Source of the DNA: Flavobacteriales bacterium 33_180_T64
GTDB lineage: Bacteria; Bacteroidota; Bacteroidia; Flavobacteriales; Flavobacteriaceae
DNA: 64,000 bases
Assembly: GCA_002162685.1 (NCBI GenBank)
Contig: MAAQ01000005.1
Coordinates: 62,001-126,000, forward strand
Reading direction: 5' to 3'
Of the stretch, positions 1,219 through 16,553 are shown in pieces. The notes under the pieces were generated by a model. The model made no database searches, had not been told where the DNA came from, and saw nothing but the letters and a program-made list of their open reading frames with translations. Numbering within the stretch: position 1 is the first letter of the stretch; the number at the start of each line of letters is the position of its first letter. A program made the translations under genes and the position numbers.

Positions 1219-2073
1219 ATGTTTTTCAAATCAAAAGAAGGAAAGGAAAAGATATTAAAGCTTTATAATCAAAAGCTTAATCAACTCAATATAGTCTATT
1301 CCGAAAAGCTATTAGAAACAAAGTTCGGCGCTACTAATATTATAATTACAGGAGAAACAAAACAGCCACCATTATTACTTATTCATGGTACAGGTGGTTG
1401 TGCACCATTGATTTTAGAATCATTCCCTAATTTATCATCTAAATACTGTGTTTATGCCATTGATGTGCTTGCTCAACCTAACAAAAGTGCAGAACAAAGG
1501 TTAGATATGAAATCTCTTGATTATGGAGAATGGTTGTTAGAAGTCATCATAAAATTAAGATTAAAAAACGTCACTTTAGTTGGGTTTTCCTTTGGCGGAT
1601 TAATTAGTTTAAAGGCGCTTGAGTTTAGTGAAATTCCAATAAAAGAAGTCTTCTTAATTGCGCCTGTTTATATTGTAAACGGAATCCCTATCCTAGGATT
1701 AGTTAAGATGTTTCTGCCTTTAAAAAAATTCATAAAAACTAATAATCAGCGTTACATTAAAAAAGTATTGAACGTACTCTTTACCGAATATGATAATTTT
1801 GAATTGGCATTTATGTCAGCTACTTTTCAGAATTGTAACATGGATTTTTCACCATTACCAACAATATCTAAAACAAGTGCACAAAATATAAGTACACCTA
1901 TAACAATTTTTGCAGCAGAAAAAGATATTATGTTTCCTGGAGGAAAAATGATAAAAAGAGCGAAAAAAATTCTTCCAACTGTAAAAGATGTAGTTTTACT
2001 TAAGGGTTCTAAACACGTGCCTAGTAATAAAGAGTTTAATGAGATAGAAGAGGAGATATTAAATAGCTTGTAA
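1219..2073 (+). CDS. Alpha/beta hydrolase
   Basis: A 284-residue soluble hydrolase. The oxyanion-loop motif LLIHGTGG is at residues 53-60, the nucleophile elbow GFSFGG has Ser124, and a plausible acid (Asp236 in AEKDIMF) and base (His266 in SKHVPS) complete the triad in the right order. This is the alpha/beta-hydrolase fold with a cap between about residues 150 and 215. The natural ester or amide substrate cannot be told. It follows the broken dehydrogenase by about 30 bases and may once have shared its transcript. No signal peptide is seen, so it is probably cytoplasmic. Confidence 0.8.
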   Translation: MFFKSKEGKEKILKLYNQKLNQLNIVYSEKLLETKFGATNIIITGETKQPPLLLIHGTGGCAPLILESFPNLSSKYCVYAIDVLAQPNKSAEQRLDMKSLDYGEWLLEVIIKLRLKNVTLVGFSFGGLISLKALEFSEIPIKEVFLIAPVYIVNGIPILGLVKMFLPLKKFIKTNNQRYIKKVLNVLFTEYDNFELAFMSATFQNCNMDFSPLPTISKTSAQNISTPITIFAAEKDIMFPGGKMIKRAKKILPTVKDVVLLKGSKHVPSNKEFNEIEEEILNSL

Positions 2074-2098: not shown

Positions 2099-2114
2099 TT
2101 CTTATTTCATAGTA

Positions 2115-2125
2115 TTATGTAAAAT
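2115..2125 (+). other. XerD-arm-like motif at left edge of repeat A
   Basis: TTATGTAAAAT matches the XerD-binding half of bacterial dif sites (E. coli TTATGTTAAAT, B. subtilis TTATGTAAACT). The expected XerC half to its left is poor here, so this is only a half site. The same motif opens repeat B at 9814. Confidence 0.4.
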
Positions 2126-2144
2126 AGAATCTCTATTTTAAGTT

Positions 2145-2368
2145 GGCCTCATAAAATTTTGGTAAAACAATAGGTGAGTGGAGCGTATATATTTTAGACT
2201 ATACAAATGCAATTATCCTGAGAATGATTGTAATTGGATACAATACTTTACTAGAATTTAGTTTCAAATAGTATTTATCTATAAATGTCTACAAGACATT
2301 TCTTTAGCGCTAAATAGTCTAAAATATAGCGAATGAGCCGTTAATTGTTTCCAAAATTATGTGCAGCC
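2145..2368. repeat. Long imperfect palindrome inside repeat A
   Basis: The left arm (2145-2202) and the reverse complement of the right arm (2314-2368) both read GGC..CA.A.AATTTTGG, then AAACAAT, then TATATTTTAGACTAT, with an unpaired middle portion. A perfect 8 bp hairpin (AAATGTCT/AGACATTT, 2283-2301) lies in the loop. Folded single-stranded, this would be a large cruciform or hairpin. Repeat B keeps the arms while the loop differs. Confidence 0.65.
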
Positions 2369-2672
2369 TTGAATTTTTGTTTCTTTTGTTTCAAGACAAA
2401 AGACAATGAAACATTAAAAGAAAACTTCAATTAGAAGATTAAATTTAACAAGTGTATGGAAATTTGCTCGCAGAGAAATTTTATACTCTTGTGGTAAGTT
2501 GACGAGAATCGCTTAATTTTTTTTTTGACGTACATTTGTCGAATACGCGATTTTTAAAACATAGCAAAAAGTTAAGCTTTTATAATGCGCTGGCAAGCGG
2601 CTGGAAATTGCGTATAAAATAAATTACAATAGTAATTTGATTTTATCAAAGCAATAAGCGTTGGCAGCGGAT

Positions 2673-2701
2673 ATTTTACATAACGTCAAATTATAATACA
2701 T
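2673..2701 (-). other. dif-like site in repeat A
   Basis: Read on the minus strand it has left arm ATGTATTATAA, a 7-base centre, and right arm TTATGTAAAAT. The arrangement is that of a XerC/XerD core site, with one more centre base than chromosomal dif. The equivalent site in repeat B is at 10330-10358. Confidence 0.4.
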
Positions 2702-2788
2702 AATGTTTTATAAACTCTGCGAAGCAAACCGTTTCTAGTTTAATACCCAAGTTCTGAACATTCTTTATCAGACAAATGCTTCTGGGAT

Positions 2789-2817
2789 ATTTTACATAGT
2801 ATAGAATTATAGCTATC
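2789..2817 (-). other. dif-like site near right end of repeat A
   Basis: On the minus strand it reads GATAGCTATAA, 7-base centre, CTATGTAAAAT. Its counterpart in repeat B (10450-10478) has the identical left arm and the perfect right arm TTATGTAAAAT, while the centres differ. That is the pattern expected for recombination sites with conserved arms. Confidence 0.4.
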
Positions 2818-2918
2818 ATTTTTTTTAAAAATAGAATAATAAGTAATACATCATAATTTCGCCAGCGCGCCATCTGTGTTACAAATAGCTTCATCCACAG
2901 GATAAACCTATTTGTAAA

Positions 2919-2949
2919 ATGTATTATAATGTTCTGCGTTATGTAACCT
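2919..2949 (+). other. Divergent dif-like/inverted-repeat arm
   Basis: On the plus strand it has ATGTATTATAA, a 9-base centre, and TTATGTAACCT. Together with 2673-2701 it forms an inverted pair (CGTTATGTAA and ATGTATTATAA arms) about 270 bases apart. The centre is longer than in normal Xer sites, so it may be a remnant. Confidence 0.3.
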
Positions 2950-3140
2950 GAGCTTTGGTTAAAAGCGAAAGGTTCTTCTTCAGTTTCTTAAAAAAATTTA
3001 TTCTTAAAAGTTTCTTCTACAATGTTAATGGAACACTCTTTTTACGAAACGACGATAGGAGAGAAGTGGAATGTGTGTGGAATGGTTAAAATGTTAAAAA
3101 CTTAATTTTATTTATTATAGCCGTTTGACTACATTTAAAT

Positions 3141-5846
3141 ATGAAATATACCAATACAGAATTAGAAGAAAAGGCAAATAGTTTATTAAATAATGTTCTT
3201 TTAGAAATGTTCGCTCAAAACAATAAAATGATTGGGAAACATCCGAGTAAACTAAGCCATGAGATTGGAATTGATTATTTCTATGAGATTAGAGACAGGA
3301 CAACAGGTGAATCTCTCAATGTTGTATTTAATCAAAATAAAGGTACTGAGAATATTAATATTATAAAGGGAAAAGCTAATCCAGAAAAGGGAAATATTTC
3401 TTTTCAATTAAAGTTGAGACATGCAAAATATTTTTTGAATGAACTTAACAAGCCATTATTTTTTACTGTATGCGATTTAAAACTAATGAAAGTTTATTGG
3501 TATTGGATACAATTAGATAATTCAATTAAAGAGCGTATAGAAACACAATTAAAAACGAATAAGAGAACATTACAGATTTTCATACCTATTGCAAATGAAC
3601 TTAACTTAAATAATTTCGATAAATTCTATAAGGAATTAGAAAAAAGTGATAGAATTCAGACACATAAATTTTTAAAATCAAAACTATTAAATGATGACGA
3701 ATATGATTTTGAAGAAATAGAAAATTCTGAATTGCATATTATAGATAAAATAGCACAAAGTATTAAGAAGTTTGATGGACTTACAATTATACCAAAACAC
3801 GTTTTAAGGAGAATGTATCCTTTCAAAGGTACTAAAGACAAGACTTATTTTTTTAATGAAACATTACACACTGACAATGAACAATTTTACAATTTATTTG
3901 AAGCTTTAGAAAAACAGGATAACAATATAAGAGTTAAGGAAGAATTTGGAGAAAGCATTTCAATATTAAATTTCGAAGATAAATTAAAGGATATAATTGA
4001 TTTTCTACAAAGTAACCTTATTCAGCATTTAAAATGGAATGGTAAAGGTCATAAAGAACGTATATGTGCTCACAATCTTTATGATTATGATAATACTTGT
4101 GATTGTGAACGATGTAATTATAATAAGTTAAACTTCAAAAAAGCTGCTAATTTACTTAGTAAAAGAAAGGAAGATGATGATTCTATAGTTAAATTCAGGC
4201 AAGCTTACACTTATTATTTATTAGGTGATTTAAAAAATGCATTTTTATTATACAAGGAAGTTACTCAAGAAACAAAGAATAAGGATAATTCGATATTAAA
4301 CATATTATGTAAATACAATCTAATAAATTTAAAAAACTTAATAAAAAACAATTATTTTGAAGCAGATAGAAATGAAATTTTAATTGAATTAAAAAAAATC
4401 AATTTTGTTTATGATGAAATTTTAATTGAGCATAATTATTACAAACATGTATTTGACTGGATAAAAGAAAACCAATTCATAAATAATTCTATTTGGGAAA
4501 TTGATAGACAGTTTACTGAAATTCAAAATCACCATAGAAAAGATAAAAATGGAGGTTATTTCAGAGGACAACAAGCTAATAGCCTAAAGTTTGAGTTTTT
4601 AAGAGTTTCCTTTTTTATTGAGTATAACTTAATAATTTATGATGTTTTTAATGAATTTCAAATCCTTGTACATAAGTCACTAGAATCAATGTTTGCATTA
4701 TATAATATTTATAATCCAGACTCTACTAAATATGACAAATTTGAATTCACATTCCTTTATAATTGGTTAATGCATGGTGATTCCACAAAAGTTAATAGAC
4801 TGCTTTTAAAGTATGATATTCAACAAATTGAATTGAACGATGAACTGTTAGTTTTTAATCGTTTTAATGACAATTTGGATAACTTGATAATATCTATAAA
4901 ACGAATAAAGGAGAATAAGGAGAATTATCTTTTTAGAGATAAAGTAAAAAATATCATTCAAAATTTCGCTTATATCCTTTCTCGAATTAAAATGAGAAAG
5001 ACCAATTTTAACTTACTTCTTAAAAAATATATTGCTTTAATTACATTATTGGAAGACGATTACCTTGTTAGTTTGATAAAATTTGAGACTCTATTTCATT
5101 ATAGAAATGATATCAATCTAACGAATACAAAGAAAATCTTAAAATTACTAAGTGATTATGAACTATTTGATACACAATCATATAATAAAGGGTTTGAGTA
5201 TTATTTAACAATACAAGACTTTGAAAAAAAAGACAATAGATTAGTTGAAATTTTTTCCAAAATAGGTACAAGTTTAAACCAAGAAACAATTGAAAGTGAT
5301 TTTTATTCAAATTTCTCAAAATATCAAAATGTATTAGAAGTCTCTGAATTAAAAAAGGAGATTAAAAAGGTTATTCAAAAAGCAGCCATAAAGAGATTGG
5401 AAGATAATTTTGACTCTAAATATTATTATCGCCTTTCTATTTATGATATAATACCTTTTCATCAAGAGTTTTTTGATAAATTTTTTAATTCCATTAAAGA
5501 TTTAACAAATAAACCAACTGGGCATGAATTAATAACAGGAGCTACACAAAGAAAGAACTATGACTTGAATAATTTGATAAATTTAAGTTATAAGTACAAT
5601 ATACTCTTTACAAGCAGAATGAAAAAATTATCTAAATATGCTCATGAAAGTGATTATTACGATTGGCTTATGGATATAGAAGGATTTGATTATTTAAAGT
5701 TTAATCATTATTGGTTATTAGAATATAAAACTAAATACTATTTTGAAGAATTCAAAAAACATAAAAAGTTAAAAGAGGAAGTAAAATCAGCACTTGATAA
5801 AAATTATATAGAAGGCGTAGCGAAAATATATATTAATCATTTTTAG
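3141..5846 (+). CDS. DUF4365-like nuclease domain protein with Cys cluster and helical C-terminus
   Basis: A 901-residue protein. Residues 1-135 look like a DUF4365 (PD-(D/E)XK-type) domain: Glu22 in helix 1, GID with Asp45, the Q65-N-K67 core strand, then a segment HAKYFLNELNKPLFFTVCDLKLMKVYWYWI with the family's hydrophobic strand and yW motif. Residues 309-325 carry Cys309 and the cluster C320-D-C-E-R-C325, possibly a zinc site, followed by a TPR-like helix pair (RQAYTYYLLGDLKNAFLLYKEV). The remainder is long, lysine- and asparagine-rich, and helical. No P-loop was seen. It stands alone on the plus strand and converges, 10 bases apart, on the GNAT/DUF4297 pair, between repeats A and B. Anti-phage function is inferred from architecture and context, not shown. 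Confidence 0.6.
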   Translation: MKYTNTELEEKANSLLNNVLLEMFAQNNKMIGKHPSKLSHEIGIDYFYEIRDRTTGESLNVVFNQNKGTENINIIKGKANPEKGNISFQLKLRHAKYFLNELNKPLFFTVCDLKLMKVYWYWIQLDNSIKERIETQLKTNKRTLQIFIPIANELNLNNFDKFYKELEKSDRIQTHKFLKSKLLNDDEYDFEEIENSELHIIDKIAQSIKKFDGLTIIPKHVLRRMYPFKGTKDKTYFFNETLHTDNEQFYNLFEALEKQDNNIRVKEEFGESISILNFEDKLKDIIDFLQSNLIQHLKWNGKGHKERICAHNLYDYDNTCDCERCNYNKLNFKKAANLLSKRKEDDDSIVKFRQAYTYYLLGDLKNAFLLYKEVTQETKNKDNSILNILCKYNLINLKNLIKNNYFEADRNEILIELKKINFVYDEILIEHNYYKHVFDWIKENQFINNSIWEIDRQFTEIQNHHRKDKNGGYFRGQQANSLKFEFLRVSFFIEYNLIIYDVFNEFQILVHKSLESMFALYNIYNPDSTKYDKFEFTFLYNWLMHGDSTKVNRLLLKYDIQQIELNDELLVFNRFNDNLDNLIISIKRIKENKENYLFRDKVKNIIQNFAYILSRIKMRKTNFNLLLKKYIALITLLEDDYLVSLIKFETLFHYRNDINLTNTKKILKLLSDYELFDTQSYNKGFEYYLTIQDFEKKDNRLVEIFSKIGTSLNQETIESDFYSNFSKYQNVLEVSELKKEIKKVIQKAAIKRLEDNFDSKYYYRLSIYDIIPFHQEFFDKFFNSIKDLTNKPTGHELITGATQRKNYDLNNLINLSYKYNILFTSRMKKLSKYAHESDYYDWLMDIEGFDYLKFNHYWLLEYKTKYYFEEFKKHKKLKEEVKSALDKNYIEGVAKIYINHF

Positions 5847-5856
5847 ATTATATTTT

Positions 5857-6357
5857 CTATGAATTAATTCTTTCTAGTAGCATTAAGCATAATTTTTTAT
5901 TTGTCTTATTGCCTTTATATGTTTTTCCTATGATTTTAAAGCCTGTAGACTTTAATATATGAAGCATTGGATTATCTGTGTTTTCCTCTGTTGTTGCAAA
6001 AACATTATCATTTCTAACTTCATTTAATAAAAGACGTGTAATATATTTACCTATTCCAAGTTTACCATTATCATCTTCGATGTTTTCTTTATCTACGAAC
6101 AAGTAACCAATTTCGTAATTATAATTATCACTTAATTCTGGAACTTCTGCGTAATCAAATGGAGATTTATAAACCTGTTTTAATGCACCAATTGCAACTG
6201 GATTTCCATTAAGCTTAACTAAACAAATTCTATAACACCTAACAACTTTTCCAACAACAGTATCTATTTGACCTTGTTTATTTAATAATACCTCAAAATT
6301 TTTGACATTATCTTTTGAAAGTAGATTTGGTGCTTCAACCAGAAATTCAATTTTCAT
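5857..6357 (-). CDS. GNAT-family N-acetyltransferase in the nuclease cargo
   Basis: A 166-residue GNAT protein. The acetyl-CoA-binding core is visible: strand YEIGYLFV (residues 81-88), pyrophosphate loop GKLGIGKYI (about 98-106), then FATTEENTDNPMLHILKSTGFKIIGKTYKG, the usual beta5/alpha4 region ending in a C-terminal strand. It starts 13 bases after the stop of the 1088-residue nuclease-like gene on the same strand, so the two are almost surely co-transcribed. It might modify the partner protein, a tRNA or a small molecule. The substrate cannot be read from sequence. Its bond to a nuclease gene inside a repeat-bounded cargo is the interesting point. Confidence 0.75.
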   Translation of the reverse strand: MKIEFLVEAPNLLSKDNVKNFEVLLNKQGQIDTVVGKVVRCYRICLVKLNGNPVAIGALKQVYKSPFDYAEVPELSDNYNYEIGYLFVDKENIEDDNGKLGIGKYITRLLLNEVRNDNVFATTEENTDNPMLHILKSTGFKIIGKTYKGNKTNKKLCLMLLERINS

Positions 6358-6370
6358 ATTTAATTATAAA

Positions 6371-9300
6371 TTATAAATCTTTAAAAGGATTGTTCTCTCC
6401 AGAGCCATCTTCTATCATATTGAATCTTACATCTAAAAATTCTCGAATTGCTAAAAAATTAGGAAACCTAGAAGGATTAGCTAAACCAAAAGATTTAAGA
6501 ATCAATATTATTGTATTTTTTAGATTAAATTCAAACTCTAAACTTGTAAATGCTTCTAAAGGAAATTCTGCTTCAAAATCAGACTCATCAAGCTTTTTTA
6601 TCTCAAAAAATAATCTATCAAAATCTTCTTGAGTTGGGTTTGTTATTCCCCTTAATCTAAATTCTGTTTTATGTGTAAGAATAAAATTATTAATGGCTAG
6701 AAAAATATGCCAATCTTGCCAACCTTGACTTCTTAACTTTTTAATAAAAACTGGAAAATCAGGATTTTGTTTAAGTTTCGCAATTGTCAAATAGCTATTT
6801 TTATGAGAGTTTTTTAAACGTTGTTCTATCCTTTTTTTAGCTTCAACTTGATCATAAAGATTACTTAATGAATGTTTCCATTTCATGACCTTGTTGGTTT
6901 GTGGAAGGTTCATATCAGTTAAAGCAACAGGAGTGAAATTATCGCGTTGCATTAAGTCAAAATTTGTTTTACTATAAACTGTTCTATACATTCTTTGATA
7001 TAATCCTCCAATAAGTGTCTTTTTTGCCAAGTCCGATTCACTAAACAAAGTATCCAAAAGTTTATCAAAATCATCAAAGGGTAAAAGACTTAAATTACTT
7101 AGAATTCTTCCTATAGACTTAGTACAGGATGTAATGTTAAGAAGGGATTCTTCTCCTTGGGTATCTGTATGCTTAACCCAAGCTTTCCAAATAATTTCAT
7201 CATTAGATGGTTGTAGTTCAGGACCTTTAAATTCATTATCAATTTCGAGTTCTATACTTACACTTCCACGTATTAAGTGAAAATCATAATTTGAAAGAGC
7301 AATTTCAGCGAGAGTGATTTGAACAATTCCACAAAAATCTTCTGCTAGTGAAGCCATTTCATAATTATTCGCAAATGATATTTTCCATTCAATGCCTAAG
7401 GCATTAAAACGCACCAATCTTGTATGACCAACATCATTCAGAGGTTTATCGGTTAGAATTCGTTCTAAAACTGGAATCCAAGAATCATAAGTCGAGTTTG
7501 TTTCTTCTAGTTTTGCAATAGCTGGCTTTAAGAATTCATCACTTAAATCTTGTAAACCATCCATATTTCGACTAACCATATCGGTAAGTTCTGGCGACAT
7601 TTTTGGGGTTAAATGAAAAACCATTGCTAAATCTGCAAGAACTTTAAAAGGCATTTCATCGACATTTGGGTCTAGTGGTGTAGCTTTTAACTCATGTCGA
7701 GCATCTATATAATCCATAGATGAAACAATTGCATTCAACCAAGCACCTTGTTTAAAATCTGCATAGAACGCGATTCCTAAGGCATCTACAATTCTTTTAA
7801 GAAGTTTTCTGTCTCCATTATGCATACTAGCCCAGACTGCAGCTAGAGCATAATATTTAGCTGCTAAATTCATTCCAATACTTGAATATAACTGCGCAAT
7901 GTTAATTAATGACAATACATAACCTTCAAAACTTTCCTGAATATTAAATTTATCTTTTGCTTTGTGGAAACATTGTAATGCCCTTAAAGACAGTTTAGGA
8001 ACATTACTATTTAAATATTTTATTCCTCTTCCAAGTTCAGCTTTTGCTCCCATAAAACTACCGCCACGCGTTTCAACTATTGGATTTAGTTTTTCTGAAT
8101 AATCATTTATTCCGTCGATCAATTCAATGTTTGATTCTGCATCAGCTTCAATAAGCAATTCAATGTACTCATCTAACCGAGTACTTAATTGAGAAACATT
8201 ATAGTAATCTGCTTTATCCAATAATTTTAGAATATCCTTTAAAGGATTAAGTACCTCATTAATATTCTTATCTTGTTTATTCCTATTAGAATTAAGAAAT
8301 AGTAGGTGAGTAGCAAGGTTTTCAAGTAGGTGACATTTTTCATTGGGATTTGATTCTACTTTAATTTTAGCATTTAAAGTATTAAACATACTATCAAACC
8401 AACCCTGTACTTCTCGTCCATCTAGATTCGTTTTATCCATAAATCCAGCTGCAACAGCAATATTCATTAAACTTTGTGCATCTTCTAACTCTTTTCCAGT
8501 TTTAAAAACATCAAAATCCTTAAAATAAAGCCTGAAATATTCTTCTTCTCCTTTTAAATTTCCTTCTGGTATTTCTCGATAATTTATTGGACGCAAAAGC
8601 AACCATAAATATTCATAAATAGCTACTCTTTTAAAATTATCATCAATCTTTGGATTATCAATATAGAGTTTTAATAATTTGAGCCAATCTTCTTTATGCT
8701 TTGTTAAATATCTTGTTACTCTACAATGTCTGGTGGCATCAATAACTTCATAGAATTGACCAATAACAAAGTCGTTTATCTTCTCAGTATTTTCCCATCG
8801 CTCATATACTACCCAATACCATTTGTCTTGGTCATTTGATGACCTTAATAGAACATCATTTAGTTCATTTAATGTTAATTTCTTGTCTTCAATTTTAGTG
8901 TTGGTTGCCTTATTCCAAGCCAGCGTATGAAGTTCTCCAAAAATAGAAGGTAAGTTTTCCTTATTTATTTGAAAGGGCAACTTTAAAATGTCATCTTCAA
9001 TACTTTGTTTTAGTTGTGCAAACTCTATGTCTGGTTTAGTGTTATTAAATACCCATTTTATTTTTTTAATGAACTCAATCCAATCTGAATCTTGAAGATT
9101 TTTAAAAACATCAATAGCTTCTTTAACTAAGGAATTTTTATCATCCTCATCAATAGCTTTAGCTTGCTTTTCTATATATTGGGTAATTATCTCTTTAGCT
9201 TTGTCAGCACATTGTTTTGCCAATTCTTCACTTAAATCACCTTGATGTTTATTCCAGTTTTTAAGTAGTTCAGCATCATTATCACCACGTACATTTGCTA

Positions 9301-9637
9301 CTGATGAATTAGCTTCAAAAATGAATTCTTTTTCTAATAAAGCATAATCTGTTTTGACGTGAAGCATAAAAAAATGCGCTAAGCATTTCTGTATTTCTTC
9401 ATTACTAAATGAAAAATTTCGAGAATACAGTTTTATCTGTCTAAATTTTGTTGTTCCTGTTATCTCGTTCTTTTGAAATATATCTTCTTCAAAGTCACAA
9501 TAAATCTCATCGTTTACATCAAGTAATGAGTTTTTTATAAGTGTTTCTAAAGTTTTTAGAACTTGATAGTGATAACCTCTCAATGAAGCAGTTGCATCTG
9601 TGTTTTTCGAAAAGATATGTAGTTTAGAGATATTCAA
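6371..9637 (-). CDS. Large protein with DUF4297-like N-terminal nuclease and helical repeats
   Basis: A 1088-residue protein. The first 100 residues fit a DUF4297/Cap4-type PD-(D/E)XK endonuclease: RGYHYQ (20-25) then helix, acidic strand DFEEDI (48-53), core strand RQIK (66-69), and FSNEEIQKCLAHFF. The rest is long and alpha-helical with TPR-like stretches (about 540-650: NSNVPKLSLRALQCFHKAKD, AAKYYALAAVWASMHN). I found no Walker A motif, so it differs from STAND-NTPase fusions such as Avs1. It is first gene of a two-gene unit with the GNAT acetyltransferase. By architecture it is a sensor-plus-DNase candidate for anti-phage defence. This is inference. Confidence 0.6.
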   Translation of the reverse strand: MNISKLHIFSKNTDATASLRGYHYQVLKTLETLIKNSLLDVNDEIYCDFEEDIFQKNEITGTTKFRQIKLYSRNFSFSNEEIQKCLAHFFMLHVKTDYALLEKEFIFEANSSVANVRGDNDAELLKNWNKHQGDLSEELAKQCADKAKEIITQYIEKQAKAIDEDDKNSLVKEAIDVFKNLQDSDWIEFIKKIKWVFNNTKPDIEFAQLKQSIEDDILKLPFQINKENLPSIFGELHTLAWNKATNTKIEDKKLTLNELNDVLLRSSNDQDKWYWVVYERWENTEKINDFVIGQFYEVIDATRHCRVTRYLTKHKEDWLKLLKLYIDNPKIDDNFKRVAIYEYLWLLLRPINYREIPEGNLKGEEEYFRLYFKDFDVFKTGKELEDAQSLMNIAVAAGFMDKTNLDGREVQGWFDSMFNTLNAKIKVESNPNEKCHLLENLATHLLFLNSNRNKQDKNINEVLNPLKDILKLLDKADYYNVSQLSTRLDEYIELLIEADAESNIELIDGINDYSEKLNPIVETRGGSFMGAKAELGRGIKYLNSNVPKLSLRALQCFHKAKDKFNIQESFEGYVLSLINIAQLYSSIGMNLAAKYYALAAVWASMHNGDRKLLKRIVDALGIAFYADFKQGAWLNAIVSSMDYIDARHELKATPLDPNVDEMPFKVLADLAMVFHLTPKMSPELTDMVSRNMDGLQDLSDEFLKPAIAKLEETNSTYDSWIPVLERILTDKPLNDVGHTRLVRFNALGIEWKISFANNYEMASLAEDFCGIVQITLAEIALSNYDFHLIRGSVSIELEIDNEFKGPELQPSNDEIIWKAWVKHTDTQGEESLLNITSCTKSIGRILSNLSLLPFDDFDKLLDTLFSESDLAKKTLIGGLYQRMYRTVYSKTNFDLMQRDNFTPVALTDMNLPQTNKVMKWKHSLSNLYDQVEAKKRIEQRLKNSHKNSYLTIAKLKQNPDFPVFIKKLRSQGWQDWHIFLAINNFILTHKTEFRLRGITNPTQEDFDRLFFEIKKLDESDFEAEFPLEAFTSLEFEFNLKNTIILILKSFGLANPSRFPNFLAIREFLDVRFNMIEDGSGENNPFKDL

Positions 9638-9813
9638 AGACTGAATTTTTATGTTAATATATAATATAGTAAATGTATTATAATGTGAAGTAAATTAACA
9701 CATAATGTATCAATAAATTTTAAGGAAATGTTAAAGTAGGGCAGGAGAATTAGTTGAATAAAGCCATTATATTATTGCTTTTTTAATATAAATTAAACAT
9801 ATATAGTATTTTA

Positions 9814-9824
9814 TTATGTAAAAT
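9814..9824 (+). other. XerD-arm-like motif at left edge of repeat B
   Basis: TTATGTAAAAT, identical to 2115-2125 and followed by the same TAGAATCTC-type sequence. It is in direct orientation with that copy, so recombination between them would remove repeat A and the nuclease cargo (about 7.7 kb). Confidence 0.4.
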
Positions 9825-9844
9825 AGAATCTCGATGTTTAGCTC

Positions 9845-10026
9845 GGCCTCATAGAATTTTGGTCAAAACAATAGGAGAAACGAGCGTCAATATTTTAGGG
9901 GTTTAGTACTACAGTTTCTTAAGAGTTTCAATTAAACAAGGGATTTCAAAGCAATATTAATGAGTTACAATGTTTCCTAAAATATAGCGAATGAGCCGTT
10001 AATTGTTTCCAAAATTATATGCAGCC
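9845..10026. repeat. Long imperfect palindrome inside repeat B
   Basis: Arms 9845-9899 and 9976-10026 are complementary in the same blocks as in repeat A (GGC..CATA.AATTTTGG, AAACAAT, ATATTTTAGG). Loop length is about 75 bases against about 110 in copy A, and the innermost paired bases differ from copy A (TTTTAGG here, TTTTAGACTAT there). Arms are conserved and the loop is variable. Confidence 0.6.
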
Positions 10027-10329
10027 TTGAATTTTTGTTTCTTTTGTTTCAAGACAAAAGATAATGAATCATTAAAAAAAGGATTAATTGAAGTTCTAAA
10101 TATAACAAGTGCATAGAATTTTATTTTTCTTAAAATTTATGCTGTTGTGGCAATCCACGAGAATCGTCTAAAATTTTTTATAACTTACATTTTATCGAAT
10201 ACGCGATTTTTAATAAGAGCAAAAAGGTTAGCTTTTATTTTGGCGTTGGCAAGCGATGGATAATTGTGTGTAAAATAAATTGCCAGAGCAATTTGATTTT
10301 ATAAAACAATCGAGCGCTTGGTAGCGGCT

Positions 10330-10358
10330 ATTTTACATAACGGCTAATTATAGATACA
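10330..10358 (-). other. dif-like site in repeat B
   Basis: On the minus strand it reads TGTATCTATAA, a 7-base centre, TTATGTAAAAT. It occupies the same place as 2673-2701 in repeat A. Confidence 0.4.
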
Positions 10359-10449
10359 TAATGTTTTAAAAAACTCTGCGAAGCAAACCGCTTAATAGTT
10401 TAATGACCCAAATTCCAATTATTCTAATGGAATACAAAGCTGCTGGGAT

Positions 10450-10478
10450 ATTTTACATAATACTACATTATAGCTATC
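10450..10478 (-). other. dif-like site at right end of repeat B
   Basis: On the minus strand it reads GATAGCTATAA, a 7-base centre, TTATGTAAAAT. It lies only 37 bases from the plus-oriented dif-like site that begins the phage-like element, so two Xer-type motifs face each other here. Confidence 0.45.
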
Positions 10479-10515
10479 AAATGGACTTCTCTCTTAAATA
10501 ACCAAATGACAACAT

Positions 10516-10543
10516 TTGTACTATAATTTATAGTATGTAAGAT
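10516..10543 (+). other. Left dif-like attachment site of the phage-like element
   Basis: Left arm TTGTACTATAA, six-base centre TTTATA, right arm GTATGTAAGAT. The left arm and centre (17 bases) are identical to those at 17383-17399, and the right arm differs at two positions. The two sites are direct repeats that enclose the whole minus-strand phage gene block. The 11-6-11 layout equals chromosomal dif of E. coli and B. subtilis. Confidence 0.7.
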
Positions 10544-10686
10544 ATTACTACAGTTTGAAGAGGTATTCTAACAACAAATCTACGAATAATTTATAGTTAA
10601 ATAAAATCTTTTCGACGAACGGTAATGTTAATTTTTTGACGTATTATCTATTTAAAAGTTAACAAAACATGTAGTTTGTCGTAATA

Positions 10687-10715
10687 AAGTGCAGTTAAAC
10701 GAGTTAACTGCACTT
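10687..10715 (-). terminator. Intrinsic terminator at end of phage late genes
   Basis: A perfect 12 bp stem (AAGTGCAGTTAA with its complement) and a 5-base loop, 15 bases past the stop codon of the last phage gene. On the minus strand it is followed by TTTATTA. Confidence 0.8.
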
Positions 10716-10729
10716 GTATAAAACGTCAA

Positions 10730-11296
10730 TTATTTACAAACGAACGCTTGAACGATTCCATCGGCATCTGTAACTATCGCAATACCAGTCGATATAAATC
10801 TTGCTGATAAAACATCTAACTCTATTGGGTTGCATTGATTGTCAGTTACTAAATCACCAACAACAGGGTATTGACCGCTTCCACTATGAAACATCTCAAA
10901 AGTATAAGTTAACGTTAATTGAGCAAATGTAGCACAAGCATCGTTTAACTCTTCAGCAGCTAAAAAGGACGTACCAAGAACACAAGCATTTTCATTGCAA
11001 CTACATGGAGTATCACAACAAACAGGATTAACAAAACCCTCGTCAGCTATGACAATCACTCTACCCGCATGACCAAAATCATGCTCTTTTATCATATCAG
11101 GACGAATTGCATCAGTAGTACAAAAATACTGCTCTAAAGTACTAAGGACAGTGGAAACAACCTTACGACCATCATTCAGCAAAGATACTACAAAACCTTT
11201 TTCTTTAATACGAAAAGTAGTCTCTTTTAATCTGTCATCATAATCACCAACAACTGTTTTAAAATGGTTATGAAAGTTTATATATATTAATTCCAT
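10730..11296 (-). CDS. Phage-element protein, last gene, Cys-rich centre; function unknown
   Basis: A 188-residue protein I do not recognise. It has no signal peptide or membrane helix. A central run C-C-D-T-P-C-S-C-N-E-N-A-C gives five cysteines in 13 residues, unusual for a cytoplasmic protein, and the last third is beta-rich (LTLTYTFEMFHSGSG). It follows the membrane-anchored gene after 3 bases and ends at the element's terminator, so it belongs to the late transcript. A virion surface or spike protein is one possibility, offered only because of position and beta content. Confidence 0.6.
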   Translation of the reverse strand: MELIYINFHNHFKTVVGDYDDRLKETTFRIKEKGFVVSLLNDGRKVVSTVLSTLEQYFCTTDAIRPDMIKEHDFGHAGRVIVIADEGFVNPVCCDTPCSCNENACVLGTSFLAAEELNDACATFAQLTLTYTFEMFHSGSGQYPVVGDLVTDNQCNPIELDVLSARFISTGIAIVTDADGIVQAFVCK

Positions 11297-11299
11297 GAT

Positions 11300-11710
11300 C
11301 TATTTGATTATTAATAATTTGTAATATTCATCATCTAACAATTTTGCCAAGTCACTAGATAAAGATTTACCCTTAGCATAAACATCATGGTACAGTTTCG
11401 CAACTATATCAAATTGTTGTCTTGACATATCTTTAACCAAATCAAACACTACTTTGTCATTTTCTGTATAGCTTCTTGGGTCATACCATGCATAGGCAGT
11501 ACCTAAGTTATGTGCTATGTTTAAAGCCTTATCATTATAAAATGAATAATCACTTGTAGCAACGCCTATATTATCTAACACATCGTTACCATTGCCCGTT
11601 TGGTCTTTTGGCTTTCGCTTTAGGAATTTAAAAATTCCAAGCGATGCAGCTGCCAATATAATAATGATTATAAAGGCATACTTTTTTATAAATTTAAATA
11701 CTATTATCAT
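11300..11710 (-). CDS. Phage-element membrane-anchored protein
   Basis: A 136-residue protein with a short basic start (FKFIKK), one transmembrane helix (YAFIIIIILAAASLGIFKF, about residues 11-29), a basic stop (KRKPK) and a soluble, helix-forming remainder. It starts one base after the stop of the glucosaminidase-like gene. Single-span proteins of this kind occur in membrane-containing ssDNA phages, but I cannot assign a role. It has no recognised domain. Confidence 0.65.
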   Translation of the reverse strand: MIIVFKFIKKYAFIIIIILAAASLGIFKFLKRKPKDQTGNGNDVLDNIGVATSDYSFYNDKALNIAHNLGTAYAWYDPRSYTENDKVVFDLVKDMSRQQFDIVAKLYHDVYAKGKSLSSDLAKLLDDEYYKLLIIK

Positions 11711-11711
11711 T

Positions 11712-12188
11712 TTACTTTTTGTTTTGTTTAATTGCTTTAAAAATCATTACTCCCGAGAATATCAAAAAAAAAAATAATGCTATCATTACCCCATTAGTAA
11801 AAGGCATTTTAATTTTATTTGCAATAGCTTCCCACTTAGTTGAGTAGTTCGGGTCAGTAGCGTAATTACTAGCTACTGTTTCGAGAACATAAGCCGTATC
11901 ATTTGTATTAGAAATATTAAACTCTTTTTGACGTTCAAAATAGTCACGCACGCTGTTAAAATGATTTTTGAAAACCGCATGACCAAGATTAGAACCTTGA
12001 CTGTACGTTTTTCTTTTAGACGGGTGACGCATCCCAAATAGGTTTTTATTTTCTTTAAAAACGGGCGACGAGTAATTTCCTGTTTCATGGTAGGTTTGGG
12101 CGTAAAGTAGCTTAGTTGATACTTTGGTAAACCCATACATATTCTTTATAGCCCATATATAGAGCCAAATTTTCATTCTTAGCAACAT
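11712..12188 (-). CDS. Glucosaminidase-like cell-wall hydrolase with C-terminal membrane helix
   Basis: A 158-residue protein. The segment STKLLYAQTYHETGNYSSPV then ENKNLFGMRHPSKR matches the core of the glucosaminidase/lysozyme-subfamily fold, with the catalytic Glu in HETG and the N-L-F-G-M signature. A later SNYATDPNYSTKWEAIANK is also typical of the family. A hydrophobic helix near the C-terminus (GVMIALFFFLIFSGVMIF) would anchor it in a membrane. Probable role: peptidoglycan cleavage during phage entry or lysis. The ATG at 12176 (MKIWLYIW) is an equally good start. Confidence 0.75.
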   Translation of the reverse strand: MLLRMKIWLYIWAIKNMYGFTKVSTKLLYAQTYHETGNYSSPVFKENKNLFGMRHPSKRKTYSQGSNLGHAVFKNHFNSVRDYFERQKEFNISNTNDTAYVLETVASNYATDPNYSTKWEAIANKIKMPFTNGVMIALFFFLIFSGVMIFKAIKQNKK

Positions 12189-12192
12189 ATTA

Positions 12193-12330
12193 TTATTGTT
12201 TTACAGATTCATGTTTATCACTAGAGAAAGGCGTTAACTTATCGATAGCAAATTGAACTATCTCAACAGCTACAGCAATAATGCCAGCATATTTCACAGC
12301 GATTTTTAATAGACTTAATACTTTTTTCAT
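12193..12330 (-). CDS. 45-residue phage-element membrane peptide
   Basis: A short gene of ATG-start reading MKKVLSLLKIAVKYAG then IIAVAVEIVQFAIDK and a polar tail ending KHESVKQ. It has one hydrophobic helix with a basic N-terminus. It ends 4 bases before the glucosaminidase-like start and begins 18 bases after a terminator hairpin, so it is the first gene of the last late transcript. A holin-like or structural membrane peptide is possible. The function is unknown. Confidence 0.6.
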   Translation of the reverse strand: MKKVLSLLKIAVKYAGIIAVAVEIVQFAIDKLTPFSSDKHESVKQ

Positions 12331-12348
12331 GATTTTTTATAGTTATTA

Positions 12349-12371
12349 AAGGGCTTGTTTAACAAGCCCTT
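12349..12371 (-). terminator. Intrinsic terminator within phage gene block
   Basis: Perfect 11 bp inverted repeat AAGGGCTTGTT/AACAAGCCCTT around one base. On the minus strand it is followed by TTAATAA. It separates the capsid gene group from the lysis gene group. Confidence 0.6.
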
Positions 12372-12392
12372 ATAATTGATTAATTATGATAT

Positions 12393-12473
12393 TTACTTAT
12401 TTGATTTAAGGTATTGCAAGGCATAGGCTCGTAATAATAAATAAGCCCACGTAATGCACAATATTTGAAACAA
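12393..12473 (-). CDS. Possible 26-residue membrane peptide with TTG start
   Basis: A frame between the 132-residue gene and the terminator encodes FQILCITWAYLLLRAYALQY and then LKSNK, a plausible single membrane helix with a basic tail. There is no ATG. TTG at 12473 is the only common start. A second frame from an ATG at 12478 gives a less convincing peptide. Kept at low confidence because of the membrane-helix pattern and the tight gene packing around it. Confidence 0.3.
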   Translation of the reverse strand: MFQILCITWAYLLLRAYALQYLKSNK

Positions 12474-12481
12474 AGCATATT

Positions 12482-12880
12482 TTATTGCTTGAATGTACCG
12501 AAGTACCCAGTTACACGTTTACCGCTTGATGTTGTTCCTTTACCGTTTGGACTAATACACATACCTAGTTTAGAAAGTCCGATAACACGAGTTTTAACAT
12601 TCATACTACAAGGGATAATCATTTCAACACCAGTATTATGATACAACACTTTCGCAATCATCGTTTGATATTCATTTCCAGTAGTAGGTGATGTATATTT
12701 CGTTGAGCCCGAATAGGGAGATACAGTCGCAGTAATTAAACCTCTTGACTTTGAAGAGTTCCACGCACTTACAATAGTAGCACCTAAATAACCCTCGTTA
12801 CCTTTCTTTACGTTCTTAATCTTTGAGTAAGTCGCACCGCTTCGCTTCGCTTCTTTTTTGTTATTTCTATGATTTGCCAT
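12482..12880 (-). CDS. Basic phage-element protein, function unknown
   Basis: A 132-residue protein with a very basic start (HRNNKKEAKRSG, YSKIKNVKKG) and a Ser/Thr/Gly-rich beta-type body (TATVSPYSGSTKYTSPTTGNEYQT). No membrane helix or known domain. It overlaps the stop of the upstream membrane gene by one base (shared A of TAATG type), so it is co-translated with the candidate capsid group. A basic DNA-binding internal or minor structural protein would fit. This is inference. Confidence 0.6.
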   Translation of the reverse strand: MANHRNNKKEAKRSGATYSKIKNVKKGNEGYLGATIVSAWNSSKSRGLITATVSPYSGSTKYTSPTTGNEYQTMIAKVLYHNTGVEMIIPCSMNVKTRVIGLSKLGMCISPNGKGTTSSGKRVTGYFGTFKQ

Positions 12881-13290
12881 TATGCTAGACCTCCTTTAGT
12901 TTTACGTTTTCCTTTGAATAAAAATATTCCTGCAATTACAAGCACAACAGGTATTGCAACTTTCCACCAATTACGAGTTAACCAAGCTTTCACCTGTTTA
13001 TTCTGTAACTTTTTAGCAGCATCACTATCCTCTGTAAATTTCGCAACATGTGGTTCAAGTTGATTTCCAACTTGTGAACCTAAATTGAAACTTTTTGTTG
13101 ACTTAAAATTTTTGTACGCTTGCTCTTCAGCTTCTTTTGCTGCTCTCGCTTGAAATTGCTCTTCACGTTTTTGAAGCTGTGCACCACTTCCAAGAATACC
13201 GCCAGTTGCCTTGTTTGCAACGCCACGTATTAAATTCCCGAAGAAAGAACCGCCTCTTTTCTTTTTAAATAATTTACTAAAAAACCCCAT
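12880..13290 (-). CDS. Phage-element protein with C-terminal membrane helix
   Basis: A 136-residue protein that begins with a basic, glycine-rich segment (GFFSKLFKKKRGGSFFGNLIRGV, ATGGILGSG), continues with a charged helix (QKREEQFQARAAKEAEEQAY) and ends in a membrane helix (WWKVAIPVVLVIAGIFLF) plus KGKRKTKGG. The same design, with the helix at the C-terminus and a basic end, is found in the neighbour at 13293. I do not recognise the family. Likely a virion membrane or assembly protein. Confidence 0.65.
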   Translation of the reverse strand: MGFFSKLFKKKRGGSFFGNLIRGVANKATGGILGSGAQLQKREEQFQARAAKEAEEQAYKNFKSTKSFNLGSQVGNQLEPHVAKFTEDSDAAKKLQNKQVKAWLTRNWWKVAIPVVLVIAGIFLFKGKRKTKGGLA

Positions 13291-13292
13291 AT

Positions 13293-13742
13293 TTATGATA
13301 ATTTTGATTTTGATTTATTACTATTAAAAAACACGTACTTTACTGATACTACAATTACTAAAAGGGCTAAAACTGGTACGCCATATTTTAAAACCTTTGC
13401 TTTCCAACCAAAAGAAAAACCATTTCTTTTACTCTTGTTAATCTGCATTTCAATCTCTTTAGCTGCATTTTTAGTAGACGCTAAAGGCGTACTAATATTA
13501 GCTTTTCCAACTGTTTTAATTGGCAAGCTTTCAACATGTGGTAAAAGATTTTTTACTAGTGCAGGAGTAACCTTTCTAACTTGATGCCTAATTACTCTAG
13601 GTTCAGAGTATGTTGGGAAATTCAAGTCTATTTCACTCGTTCGAACTGGTCTTAAACCACCTCTTACATGAGTTACGTTTATCGAGCCCGATTTACTTTT
13701 TGGTAAATCAGGCTTGACAAATACTACTGGACGCAAACCCAT
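13293..13742 (-). CDS. Phage-element protein with C-terminal membrane helix
   Basis: A 149-residue protein. The soluble part contains two similar motifs, N-terminal MGLRPVVFVKPDLPKS and GGLRPVRTSEIDLNFP, perhaps a short internal repeat. A membrane helix follows near the end (YGVPVLALLVIVVSVKYVFF) and then a basic Lys/Ser tail. The start overlaps the stop of the candidate capsid gene by one base. Role unknown. It could link an internal membrane and the capsid shell. Confidence 0.65.
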   Translation of the reverse strand: MGLRPVVFVKPDLPKSKSGSINVTHVRGGLRPVRTSEIDLNFPTYSEPRVIRHQVRKVTPALVKNLLPHVESLPIKTVGKANISTPLASTKNAAKEIEMQINKSKRNGFSFGWKAKVLKYGVPVLALLVIVVSVKYVFFNSNKSKSKLS

Positions 13743-14458
13743 TAGAAACTAATTAAAGTTAGTTCAACAGTTCCAGTCGCTTTTTCAATATCTATTGATA
13801 AGACATCATCTAAAGGCAACATTAACACACTACCAGTATCGGTTGACACATTACCGCCAGCATCAGCAGAAATAACACCTTCAACATCAAAAGCAATTGC
13901 TTGCAACTCGATTAAAGAATATTTCGTGCGTACTCCGTTAGAAAAAGTAAACTCAATGTTTTGAACATTTTCAGAATCTAACATTAACAAATCACGCCCT
14001 TGAACGTTGTATGTTTTTTCGGTTTCATCTGACAAAATTGTCTTTCTAACTAAAGAACTAATACTTGTTGCAGCTTGTGGATATTCAAGACCATAAATCT
14101 CATAAGTCTGAGCAGATTTAATATCTGTTAATGATACTTTAATACTTTCGTCAGCACCTAAAACTATAGAGCCCTCTTGTGCAATTTCACAAAGTGCAGA
14201 CATACCAATTTTTGGCGTTGCACCTGTATTCGTTTGAATCAAAGAATGACCAAAAGTACCACCTAACACAAAATGTTTCAAGCTAATGTTCGAGCAAATC
14301 TCTGTGTTGTCACCGTTTGCGCCCTCAATGAAAATTGTAATTTTCTCATTGGTTAATTCATGTACTCCAAGAGTACTTCTTAATAGTAAACCTCCAATTG
14401 CTCGGGATATTCGTAATTCGCCCGTTTTGGTTTTACCTGTTCCGTTGTAAACTTCCAT
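13742..14458 (-). CDS. Candidate major capsid protein of the phage-like element
   Basis: A 238-residue protein that is almost wholly beta-strand in pattern (LGVHELTNEKITIFIEG, SIKVSLTDIKSAQTYEIYGL, TGTVELTLISF), with no signal peptide, cysteine-poor, slightly acidic. It is the largest structural-type gene of the block and begins a transcript right after a terminator, as a highly expressed capsid gene would. The jelly-roll suggestion comes from the strand pattern and from comparison in principle with FLiP-like phages. I have no direct homology evidence. Confidence 0.45.
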   Translation of the reverse strand: MEVYNGTGKTKTGELRISRAIGGLLLRSTLGVHELTNEKITIFIEGANGDNTEICSNISLKHFVLGGTFGHSLIQTNTGATPKIGMSALCEIAQEGSIVLGADESIKVSLTDIKSAQTYEIYGLEYPQAATSISSLVRKTILSDETEKTYNVQGRDLLMLDSENVQNIEFTFSNGVRTKYSLIELQAIAFDVEGVISADAGGNVSTDTGSVLMLPLDDVLSIDIEKATGTVELTLISF

Positions 14459-14498
14459 AATTTTAATTAAATGTTTTTAAATGTTGACACAAATAAAA

Positions 14499-14516
14499 GG
14501 GGGATTTTAAACCCCC
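14499..14516 (-). terminator. Intrinsic terminator between replication and capsid genes
   Basis: GGGGG and CCCCC arms around an eight-base AT loop, followed on the minus strand by TTTTATTTG. It lies in the 72-base gap between the HTH gene and the candidate capsid gene. Confidence 0.65.
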
Positions 14517-14530
14517 ATAATAGAAACGGG

Positions 14531-14761
14531 CTAATTCGGGTTGTTTTGGAATGTTTCACAAGCTTTTAAGATGCTTTTATCAGTTATATGAAGTAAATCA
14601 CATACAACATTCGCAGGTATATTGTCGAGCGTTGCAATATCAAAAATTGTTAAATAATTGCGCTTAGTTCCTAGAGCATCCAAATAAGCTTGGTAGTGTT
14701 TTGTTACGTTAGACACATTAATTCCAATGTAATTAGCTAACTGCTTTCGTGTTACTCTCAT
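14531..14761 (-). CDS. Small helix-turn-helix-type protein next to the replication initiator
   Basis: A 76-residue protein whose start MRVTRKQLANYIGINVSNVTKHYQ resembles a helix-turn-helix (LANYIG then a recognition helix). The rest is helical. Its start overlaps the Rep stop codon by four bases (ATGA type), so the two are translationally coupled. Likely a DNA-binding regulator or replication accessory protein of the element. No closer assignment is possible. Confidence 0.6.
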   Translation of the reverse strand: MRVTRKQLANYIGINVSNVTKHYQAYLDALGTKRNYLTIFDIATLDNIPANVVCDLLHITDKSILKACETFQNNPN

Positions 14762-15912
14762 ATTTCAGTTATTAAATCTTCGTTAAACTGACTACGATTA
14801 AATGATTTTATAAACTGTTTCTTTTCAAACTCATTAAGGTAAAAAGGCAGTTTTTTAGAAAACCAGTCCCATAGCCCGAAATCTGATAACATAATTTTCA
14901 TAGGTAATATATATTCAAGACGTTGACCCGTAGAAACGTAGGAGCGAAGCAATGATTTTACCATACGTTGCTGACCTATGAGAGTTTCTTTTATTACACG
15001 TTTGATTTTAGTAATTGTTTTAGAGACTAATTCTAAAGTATTTGCCACAGAATCCCAACATATAAAAGCAAAGTTTTGTTCCTGGTTAACTTGTGCCTTT
15101 TCAGTATTATGCTTTAACTCAAAATGATTTGAATTAGCAGTCTTTAAAAGATTGAAGAGTCCTTCATTACTAAAAATAGAATCAAGAGTTATTCCCTCTA
15201 GTTCCGATAAAAACTTATTGCTCAACTGGTACTCGTAACGCCAAACAGGGTTTGTTTCGTCGTTAGTAATACCCATATTAGACCAAGCATCTAAAATATA
15301 TGTTTTAAGATTCTTTTTACTTTCTAAAGTCTTGTTATAAATTCTCAAAAAACGTGACGAAGTTCTCGCACCAATGCGCACGCCTTGAAAAGTCATTTTA
15401 CCTTTTTTTGTTTGGCTGAAAATATTCACATCTTTCTCACGACCAGAAATCAAAACATCATTATTACAAATGTTACGCAATAGGGCAGTAACATTATGAT
15501 TTGATTCATTAAAATCTAGTGCAATATCAAGCCTATTGATATTTTTATACGTTAACCCCATTAATTCGGTCAATTCAATGAGTTGGTTTTTTATCGTAGA
15601 GAGGGAATTTGTGTAAAACAAATGATTAGATAACTTAAATTGACATAGATGTTCATCTATTATAGCACTTCGTGGACTGAATACCAACGTGCCGAACTCT
15701 TGACCTTTATAGTCTATAGTCACTCTTTTATCAAATACTTTAGTTCCGTAATCTTCAAAAGTTGCTTTAACGCCCTCGAAGTTAAAAACGGGCGACCCTG
15801 TAAAGTTTACGTTGATATAATCCATAAATAAAGCGTAATTCTTTACTTGCGTGAGTTGGTTCCCGTTATACTTATCGGGAACTTTGAGCCCTGTATTTAC
15901 TGTGTTTTTCAT
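14758..15912 (-). CDS. Rolling-circle replication initiator, Rep_trans type
   Basis: A 384-residue protein with the layout of the Rep_trans/replication-initiation-factor family of filamentous and other ssDNA phages. It has YALFMDYINVNF near residue 26-37, strand NRLDIALDF at 126-134, and the signature GVRIGARTSSRFLRIYNKTLE at 177-197, where Tyr192 and Lys194 sit in the R-I-Y-x-K-x-x-E motif expected to nick DNA. The family nicks one strand at a double-strand origin and covalently attaches through tyrosine. The hairpin-rich segment just upstream (15990-16071) is a natural origin candidate. There is no helicase domain. Confidence 0.75.
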   Translation of the reverse strand: MKNTVNTGLKVPDKYNGNQLTQVKNYALFMDYINVNFTGSPVFNFEGVKATFEDYGTKVFDKRVTIDYKGQEFGTLVFSPRSAIIDEHLCQFKLSNHLFYTNSLSTIKNQLIELTELMGLTYKNINRLDIALDFNESNHNVTALLRNICNNDVLISGREKDVNIFSQTKKGKMTFQGVRIGARTSSRFLRIYNKTLESKKNLKTYILDAWSNMGITNDETNPVWRYEYQLSNKFLSELEGITLDSIFSNEGLFNLLKTANSNHFELKHNTEKAQVNQEQNFAFICWDSVANTLELVSKTITKIKRVIKETLIGQQRMVKSLLRSYVSTGQRLEYILPMKIMLSDFGLWDWFSKKLPFYLNEFEKKQFIKSFNRSQFNEDLITEI

Positions 15913-15940
15913 TGTCGTATATTGTTTGCATATTAATTAA

Positions 15941-16153
15941 TTAGGCATTTTCAATGGTCTCGTTTCGATTAGCCCATTGAATACTATTTTCGGTTTCCAA
16001 CCGATAAGGATGCTTTTTGTCTCGCCAAAAAGAATCAAAAAGCGACCCGTTATCGAACGGGAGCGACGCTCTCTCTCGCCTCGTTTTAGTTCGAAAAAAC
16101 TGCTTTTTTCTCACGTCACTTCGTTGGCTCTTTAGCTTCAAGCCCAAAAACAA
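15941..16153 (-). CDS. Doubtful 70-residue ORF over the putative origin
   Basis: An open frame that overlaps the end of the 80-residue gene by 16 bases. The product is rich in Arg, Lys and Ser (KSQRSDVRKKQFF, RTKTRRERASLPF), with no recognisable fold, and the DNA beneath is full of hairpins. It could be a basic peptide, but the open frame may simply reflect structured origin DNA. A competing frame runs on the other strand. Confidence 0.25.
   Translation of the reverse strand: MFLGLKLKSQRSDVRKKQFFRTKTRRERASLPFDNGSLFDSFWRDKKHPYRLETENSIQWANRNETIENA
15990..16071. other. Hairpin cluster, putative replication origin of the ssDNA element
   Basis: Three hairpins lie within 82 bases upstream of the Rep gene. 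These are TCGGTT/AACCGA with a 3-base loop (15990-16004), CCCGTT/AACGGG with loop ATCG (16046-16061), and GAGCG/CGCTC around one base (16061-16071). Rep_trans-type initiators nick beside or within such structures. No nick site was identified. Confidence 0.45.
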
Positions 16154-16380: not shown

Positions 16381-16552
16381 GTTGTAAGGGTAAAAGGTCG
16401 TTTAATTCATTATTACAAAACTCATATTGACGCATTAAAGAATGCTTGTATTTTCTGTTTTTTCTACTGGATTGAATCTTATTATCAATCTGATTAAGGC
16501 GCTTAAATAAGTAGTTAATTTGTTCCGTTTCAGTAACTGGTATTAGTATCAT
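16370..16552 (-). CDS. 60-residue helical phage-element protein
   Basis: A short, charged, probably coiled-coil protein (VTETEQINYLFKRLNQIDNK, IQSSRKNRKYKHSLMRQYEF). It starts one base after the Cys/His-rich gene ends and overlaps the next gene. No known family. Kept because of the uninterrupted gene packing on this strand. Confidence 0.45.
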   Translation of the reverse strand: MILIPVTETEQINYLFKRLNQIDNKIQSSRKNRKYKHSLMRQYEFCNNELNDLLPLQHAI

Positions 16553-16553
16553 A

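Follow-up and report, generated by a model that had tools for sequence, protein, structure and literature searches.

Two candidate nuclease-sensor proteins, one with a DSR2-like body, in a dif-bounded cassette of a Flavobacteriales genome

The stretch analysed here is a window of 64,000 nucleotides (nt), G000:C3:62001-126000, from the 3.75 Mb genome of Flavobacteriales bacterium 33_180_T64; window positions are used throughout. Its open reading frames (ORFs) and repeat alignments confirm that three genes, encoding a 901 amino acid (aa) DUF4365 protein, a 166 aa GNAT-type protein and a third, large protein of 1088 aa, lie as a cassette between long direct repeats (Table 1). A single further ORF of at least 80 aa is found between the repeats, a 105 aa frame at 6315-6632 (+) that is antisense to the GNAT and third genes. 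The DUF4365 gene is convergent with the other two, which occupy the opposite strand, so an earlier, sequence-only reading of this DNA, which had the large genes facing each other with a GNAT between them, is roughly right on this point. Domain scans agree with that reading that both large proteins combine a nuclease-type domain with a long body, the Pfam scan finds no NTPase or cyclase family in either, and relatives of the large proteins are indeed found close to known defence genes. Its domain names held in part: DUF4365 is supported, whereas the DUF4297 assignment of the third protein stands only through its N-terminus and its relatives, the full-length scan being negative.

Table 1. Features of the cassette and its ends, in window positions
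Feature	Position	Strand	Remarks
block A, left copy	2112-2818	+	repeat beside dif in the genus; inverted dif-like sites at ~2673-2699 and ~2789-2817
block B	2917-3114	+	repeat starting at dif* and running into the first cargo gene
dif*	2921-2947	+	modified dif with a 9-nt spacer; left cassette end
901-aa protein gene	3141-5846	+	from the ORF list; DUF4365 domain ~1-160, DSR2-like MID-CTD body ~186-901
166-aa GNAT-type protein gene	5857-6357	-	13 bp downstream of the Cap4-type gene
1088-aa protein gene	6371-9637	-	TTG start; Cap4/DUF4297-type domain ~1-206, body of unassigned fold
block A, right copy	9812-10479	+	inverted dif-like sites at 10330-10358 and 10450-10478
dif-like site	10516-10543	+	2 mismatches to the intact copy; right cassette end and left prophage end
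intact dif	17383-17410	+	far prophage end

The 901 aa protein matches PF14280 (DUF4365) above the Pfam cut-off (E = 1.9e-7), and the body behind this domain is, by profile comparison, homologous to the part of DSR2, an anti-phage protein, that lies outside SIR2. The first sign was a weak full-length match of a four-row profile to PDB 8ygo and 8ygk (E = 5.3 and 6.5), in a region that is DSR2 residues ~302-1000. A family profile of eight bodies, compared with DSR2 and its 51%-identical Priestia relative, matches this MID and C-terminal domain (CTD) region at 98.1% (E = 1.3e-13, 639 columns); the controls gave 0.07% for the reversed template, 0.38% for the best of 20 column shuffles and 0.2% for the unrelated body of the Cap4-type protein described below. 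The C-terminal part alone reaches 97.7% and the remainder alone 94.0%. The N-terminal SIR2 NADase domain of DSR2 is not present in the 901 aa protein, for which Pfam gives DUF4365 and no SIR2. In DSR2 the CTD senses the phage tail tube protein and MID connects the CTD to SIR2, according to the accessible part of PMC10981675.

The eight bodies carry different N-termini. Five were called by Pfam, namely DUF4365 on three (the window protein, G045 and G564), PIN_12 on one (G085, E = 7.7e-13) and MmeI_N on one (the second copy in G532, E = 6.7e-6), and three by eye, G084 being similar to DUF4365, G494 PIN-like and the first G532 copy marked by a restriction-type motif. To judge from these matches this is a DSR2-like family with swapped effectors, in which DUF4365, PIN or restriction-type N-termini replace SIR2. 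PADLOC models are matched (E = 1e-4 or better) by five of the ten neighbour proteins scanned at G084, G045, G532 and G494; LmuA (E = 2.5e-137) and LmuB (E = 5.8e-228) stand immediately upstream in G084, G532 contributes an Aga nuclease, and G494 a methylase together with a UvrD-like helicase. The G045 neighbour has no PADLOC match. At the G084 locus (L032:2656-8423) the Lamassu LmuA-LmuB pair is thus followed directly by the DSR2-like protein with its DUF4365-like N-terminus, and the G532 locus (L050:2117-8668) has two DSR2-like proteins in tandem, with unlike N-termini, and then the Aga nuclease. The plasmid search found no match to the DUF4365 protein.

The third protein belongs with the Cap4_nuclease family (PF14130), the former DUF4297. 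Scanned whole, it has no match to PF14130 in Pfam and none in PADLOC or NCBIfam; PF14130 is matched by seven of the eight aligned N-termini of its family (best E = 1.6e-9), and residues E50, D52, Q67 and K69 are invariant in all eight, so that the family has both the profile match and the kept acidic, Q and K residues of a Cap4/DUF4297-type domain, the window member itself lying below the cut-off. Its nearest named relative is in Tenacibaculum aquimarinum (82% identity) and a homologue in G097 is 67% identical. The TTG start (9635-9637) is kept in the three closest relatives (L026, L027, L028), and three relatives from Cytophagia have ATG. Hymenobacter and Fibrella relatives with the same N-terminus (two scanned) match the LmuA models of Lamassu. 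The Cap4-type gene is preceded by a DUF6088/AbiEii pair in G097 and by annotated AbiEi/AbiEii in Fibrella, where CBASS genes lie ~7 kb upstream. On the Hymenobacter plasmids (L033:6734-7984, L034:6728-7978) a gene for a 416 aa protein is directly upstream of the Cap4-type gene, possibly a different partner that replaces the GNAT.

The body of this protein is common to plasmid proteins of Bradyrhizobium, Streptomyces and Mycobacterium (20-23% identity by tblastn), with a profile match of 100% (E = 3.3e-67; reversed, 0.18%). These proteins are without the Cap4 N-terminus; two have, by eye, a restriction-type N-terminus for which Pfam gives no support. A Shedu gene is located beside the Mycobacterium protein. 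Kinship between the bodies of the two large proteins was considered and rejected on the profile comparison (0.2%). Among solved structures the Cap4-type family finds one chance match or none.

The repeats that the sequence-only reading had put at 0.7 kb are real and ~82% alike, and their nature is corrected here: they are, by their alignments, copies of the flank of dif and not transposon ends. They align at 2113-2197 with 9812-9898 (85%, 87 columns) and at 2319-2818 with 9977-10479 (82%, 514 columns, E = 2.7e-123 in a search of the source genome). A 28-mer that we take to be dif, the chromosome dimer resolution site, by its likeness to that of E. coli is present in 21 of 23 genus genomes when up to 3 mismatches are allowed, one copy in each and two in the source genome. 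The window repeat also matches 21 of the 23 genus genomes, and it lies beside dif in the 11 regions read (those of genus genomes with repeat matches, the source included), on which grounds transposon or island ends were rejected. In 10 of the 11, block A pieces lie left of dif within ~0.9 kb, and inverted dif-like sites occur in six. Over its larger part the left block A shares 89% identity with the sequence that flanks dif in G680, a genome in which the arrangement is unoccupied: the hydrolase gene (window 1219-2073) is followed by block A and then by dif. Towards the right of the window the GC skew becomes negative, as would fit a terminus, though gene strand confounds this signal.

At the left end dif* occupies the place that dif has in G679, with similar arms and a spacer of 9 nt instead of 6. 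Block B gave 31 matches, of which the 21 that reach the block start were kept and one is dif itself; a dif-like site is found at 14 of the other 20 starts, equalled by at most 1 of 200 shuffles. There are 10 sites with the exact dif* pattern, spread over 8 of the 23 genomes, and none is more than 14.2 kb away from dif; eight have the orientation of dif and two (both in G682) the opposite one.

Other members of the genus hold other cargo at this place, three of the 11 genomes read (the source included) having cargo of defence type, so the site is a dif-adjacent cassette hotspot. The cargo in G695 is one 1033 aa protein with SIR2_2 and an nSTAND NTPase; in G696 it comprises DUF6932, HTH and ParA/TPR proteins, with PADLOC matches to PDC-M63A, RmrA (weak) and PDC-M28B; the two cargo genes of G697 gave no hits; and in the other seven regions, which were assessed only by eye, the genes are for transport, metabolism or other functions. 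In the source genome a prophage bounded by two dif copies follows the cassette at 10516-17410. Six of its ten proteins scanned match phage families strongly, including a replication initiator, an endolysin and virion proteins, and it presumably resembles the small single-stranded DNA phages of Flavobacteria. Left of the window (G000:C3 54675-55423, L015) the array has a ParD/ParE pair with a dif*-type site on either side, the left one close by. The 9.2 kb contig C17 of the source genome (2665-8924, L017) has block B and A pieces around oxidoreductase, MFS and sigma factor genes identified by eye, perhaps another cassette. A phage origin of the cassette genes was rejected, as pattern-based scans of viral contigs found no relative of either large protein or the GNAT and the phage records none of either large protein.

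Taken together, we think it fairly probable that the locus comprises two nuclease-sensor proteins, one of them an effector-swapped DSR2-like protein, within a dif-bounded cassette; this reading is firmest in the DSR2 homology and in the position at dif. Several observations weigh against it. The DSR2 match depends on the family profile, because scores are lower for the window sequence by itself (74.9%), for the other members taken singly (6.4-93.9%) and for the DUF4365-type rows by themselves (72.6%), and a PADLOC scan of the 901 aa protein found nothing. The N-terminal 220 aa of the window Cap4-type protein alone reach 20 bits with PF14130 (E = 0.00085), below the cut-off of 26.2. Predicted models of the two large proteins have mean pLDDT (predicted local distance difference test) values of 33.7 and 33.2, and neither fold is supported by them. 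Cap4-type relatives without a neighbouring GNAT occur in T. aquimarinum, G010, two Hymenobacter plasmids and a Fibrella plasmid. Six of the 20 block-B starts are without a good dif-like site, and G682 has a short block A piece and its array on the other side of dif, in the opposite orientation. The G682 region (L079) has the look of an in-place inversion of dif.

The cassette was probably built by host XerCD, the putative agent. Its ends lie at dif-like sites, dif on the right and dif* on the left, and the ORF list and Pfam show no recombinase gene among the three genes between them. Another account, which we regard as possible and rather doubtful, is that XerCD was not involved, the repeats having arisen otherwise and homologous recombination between them moving genes in and out. 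Blocks A and B, being long, direct and common to several genomes, would be sufficient for this, which is a further point against the reading given above, and the dif* spacer of 9-10 nt is unlike that of dif. Against it stand the dif-like arms at 14 of 20 block-B starts, which are better than at least 199 of 200 shuffles, the alignment of dif* with the place of dif in G679, and a prophage at the same spot bounded by dif copies.

The three genes differ in their distribution. The window GNAT has no Pfam match, and its 63%-identical relative in G097 approaches Acetyltransf_1 (E = 0.0014, 19.4 bits, cut-off 20.7). Among 299 genomes of the family the GNAT is present in two, the source and G097, and adjoins the Cap4-type gene in both; the 1088 aa protein is matched in four (source, G097, G010 and G138, the last in its N-terminus only) and the 901 aa protein in four (source, G045, G085 and G084). 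In phylum samples the 1088 aa protein is found in the source and G390 (395 genomes) and the 901 aa protein in the source, G494, G532 and G564 (345 genomes); these samples were drawn independently and do not bear on co-occurrence. The sequence-only reading had made one anti-phage module of the three genes and had let this depend on conserved linkage of two genes in other genomes, which for the pair of large ones was not found. The Cap4-type and GNAT genes are linked, while DUF4365-type and Cap4-type genes coincide in the source genome only among the 299, and the module in that form is not sustained. The cassette looks instead, from these distributions, like a carrier of two independent nuclease-sensor proteins, and the GNAT is an occasional partner of the Cap4-type gene. 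GNAT-like proteins occur in 10 plasmid records; the two inspected, a Salinivibrio gene near restriction endonuclease and toxin-antitoxin genes and an Aeromonas gene among plasmid genes, are not informative.

The Cap4-type gene and GNAT might alternatively serve to maintain the cassette, as a toxin-antitoxin-like addiction pair, and not in phage defence. The GNAT is directly behind the nuclease gene in both genomes that have it, the ParD/ParE pair lies in the same array, and the TTG start in the window and in three of three closest relatives hints at low expression; since full-length relatives without the GNAT exist, as listed above, the GNAT is not a required antidote, and we consider this explanation unlikely. 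That both nucleases and the GNAT act together as a single module is already disfavoured and seems to us very improbable: the three genes share one interval between two repeats, and in G084 the DSR2-like gene is directly behind a Cap4-type nuclease gene (though the latter is the LmuA of a Lamassu pair), but the two large genes are on opposite strands and their relatives, which coincide only in the source genome, sit in separate neighbourhoods.

For the favoured reading, two nuclease-sensor proteins in a dif-bounded cassette, we propose the following mechanism. Host XerC/XerD would probably have inserted the cassette at dif, with dif remaining at its right end and a modified dif at its left. Each of the two large proteins would be a defence system in its own right, probably of abortive infection type. 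In the DUF4365 protein the MID-CTD body of DSR2 is kept and a predicted nuclease replaces the SIR2 NADase. Binding of a phage protein (in DSR2, of the tail tube protein) to the C-terminal sensor would move the body and set the nuclease free. The Cap4-type protein would work likewise with a sensor body that is unrelated, and the GNAT may be a partner that it can do without, one that perhaps restrains or adjusts it.

More broadly, and tentatively, it is quite possible that in this one genus an integron-like array without its own integrase has its open end at dif, that Xer adds cassettes there, each locked by its longer left spacer (9-10 versus 6 nt), and that within the array a DSR2-like sensor family swaps SIR2, DUF4365, PIN and restriction-type nucleases. 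The array cargo would then include phage-triggered nucleases, SIR2-STAND proteins, toxin-antitoxin pairs, metabolic genes and small prophages. If these ideas are correct, the DSR2 phage sensor is a portable part that evolution has joined not just to an NADase but also to nucleases, a plan and perhaps a trigger can be predicted for a set of unnamed proteins, the genus has one predictable spot beside dif for exchangeable genes, defence included, and Xer-driven cassette capture becomes directly testable. In the open-licence literature we found no earlier report of a DUF4297-acetyltransferase pairing in phage defence, of Cap4 nuclease-TPR defence, of DSR2 with a DUF4365 or PIN nuclease domain, or of Tenacibaculum dif/Xer, and in the accessible parts of those sources none was evident on dif-XerC defence cassettes, which is not proof of absence.

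Among known systems, the N-terminal Cap4-type nuclease domain is shared with Cap4 of CBASS, LmuA of Lamassu and Avs1. CBASS Cap4 is associated with SAVED and a cyclase, families that are absent from the three cassette proteins (Pfam, PADLOC); the LmuB (SMC-type ATPase) partner of Lamassu is not in the cassette (ORFs, Pfam, PADLOC); and Pfam does not find the STAND NTPase of Avs1 in the 1088 aa protein, which instead has a ~870 aa body without known relatives. With DSR2 the 901 aa protein shares, by profile, the whole body behind the N-terminal effector, and also the plan of N-terminal effector, MID and C-terminal sensor as given in the accessible part of PMC10981675; it differs in having a DUF4365 nuclease-type domain where DSR2 has SIR2, and the two are only 18% identical in the profile alignment. 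Short Argonaute systems with DUF4365-APAZ likewise use DUF4365 as a defence nuclease, as far as the available portion of PMC10810196 describes them. Unlike these, the cassette has no APAZ or Argonaute family in its ORF list or Pfam scan. Elements bounded by dif-like sites include the pdif modules of Acinetobacter, dif-integrated phages and other integrative mobile elements exploiting Xer (IMEX). The cassette resembles them in its recombinase-free cargo between dif-like sites, and the small prophage at dif resembles dif-integrated phages and IMEX, so far as the accessible parts of PMC7399989, PMC5357621 and PMC9966536 go. It differs from pdif modules and IMEX in forming part of a chromosomal array beside dif itself, with defence cargo, a left site whose spacer is 9-10 nt, and the conserved flank blocks A and B.

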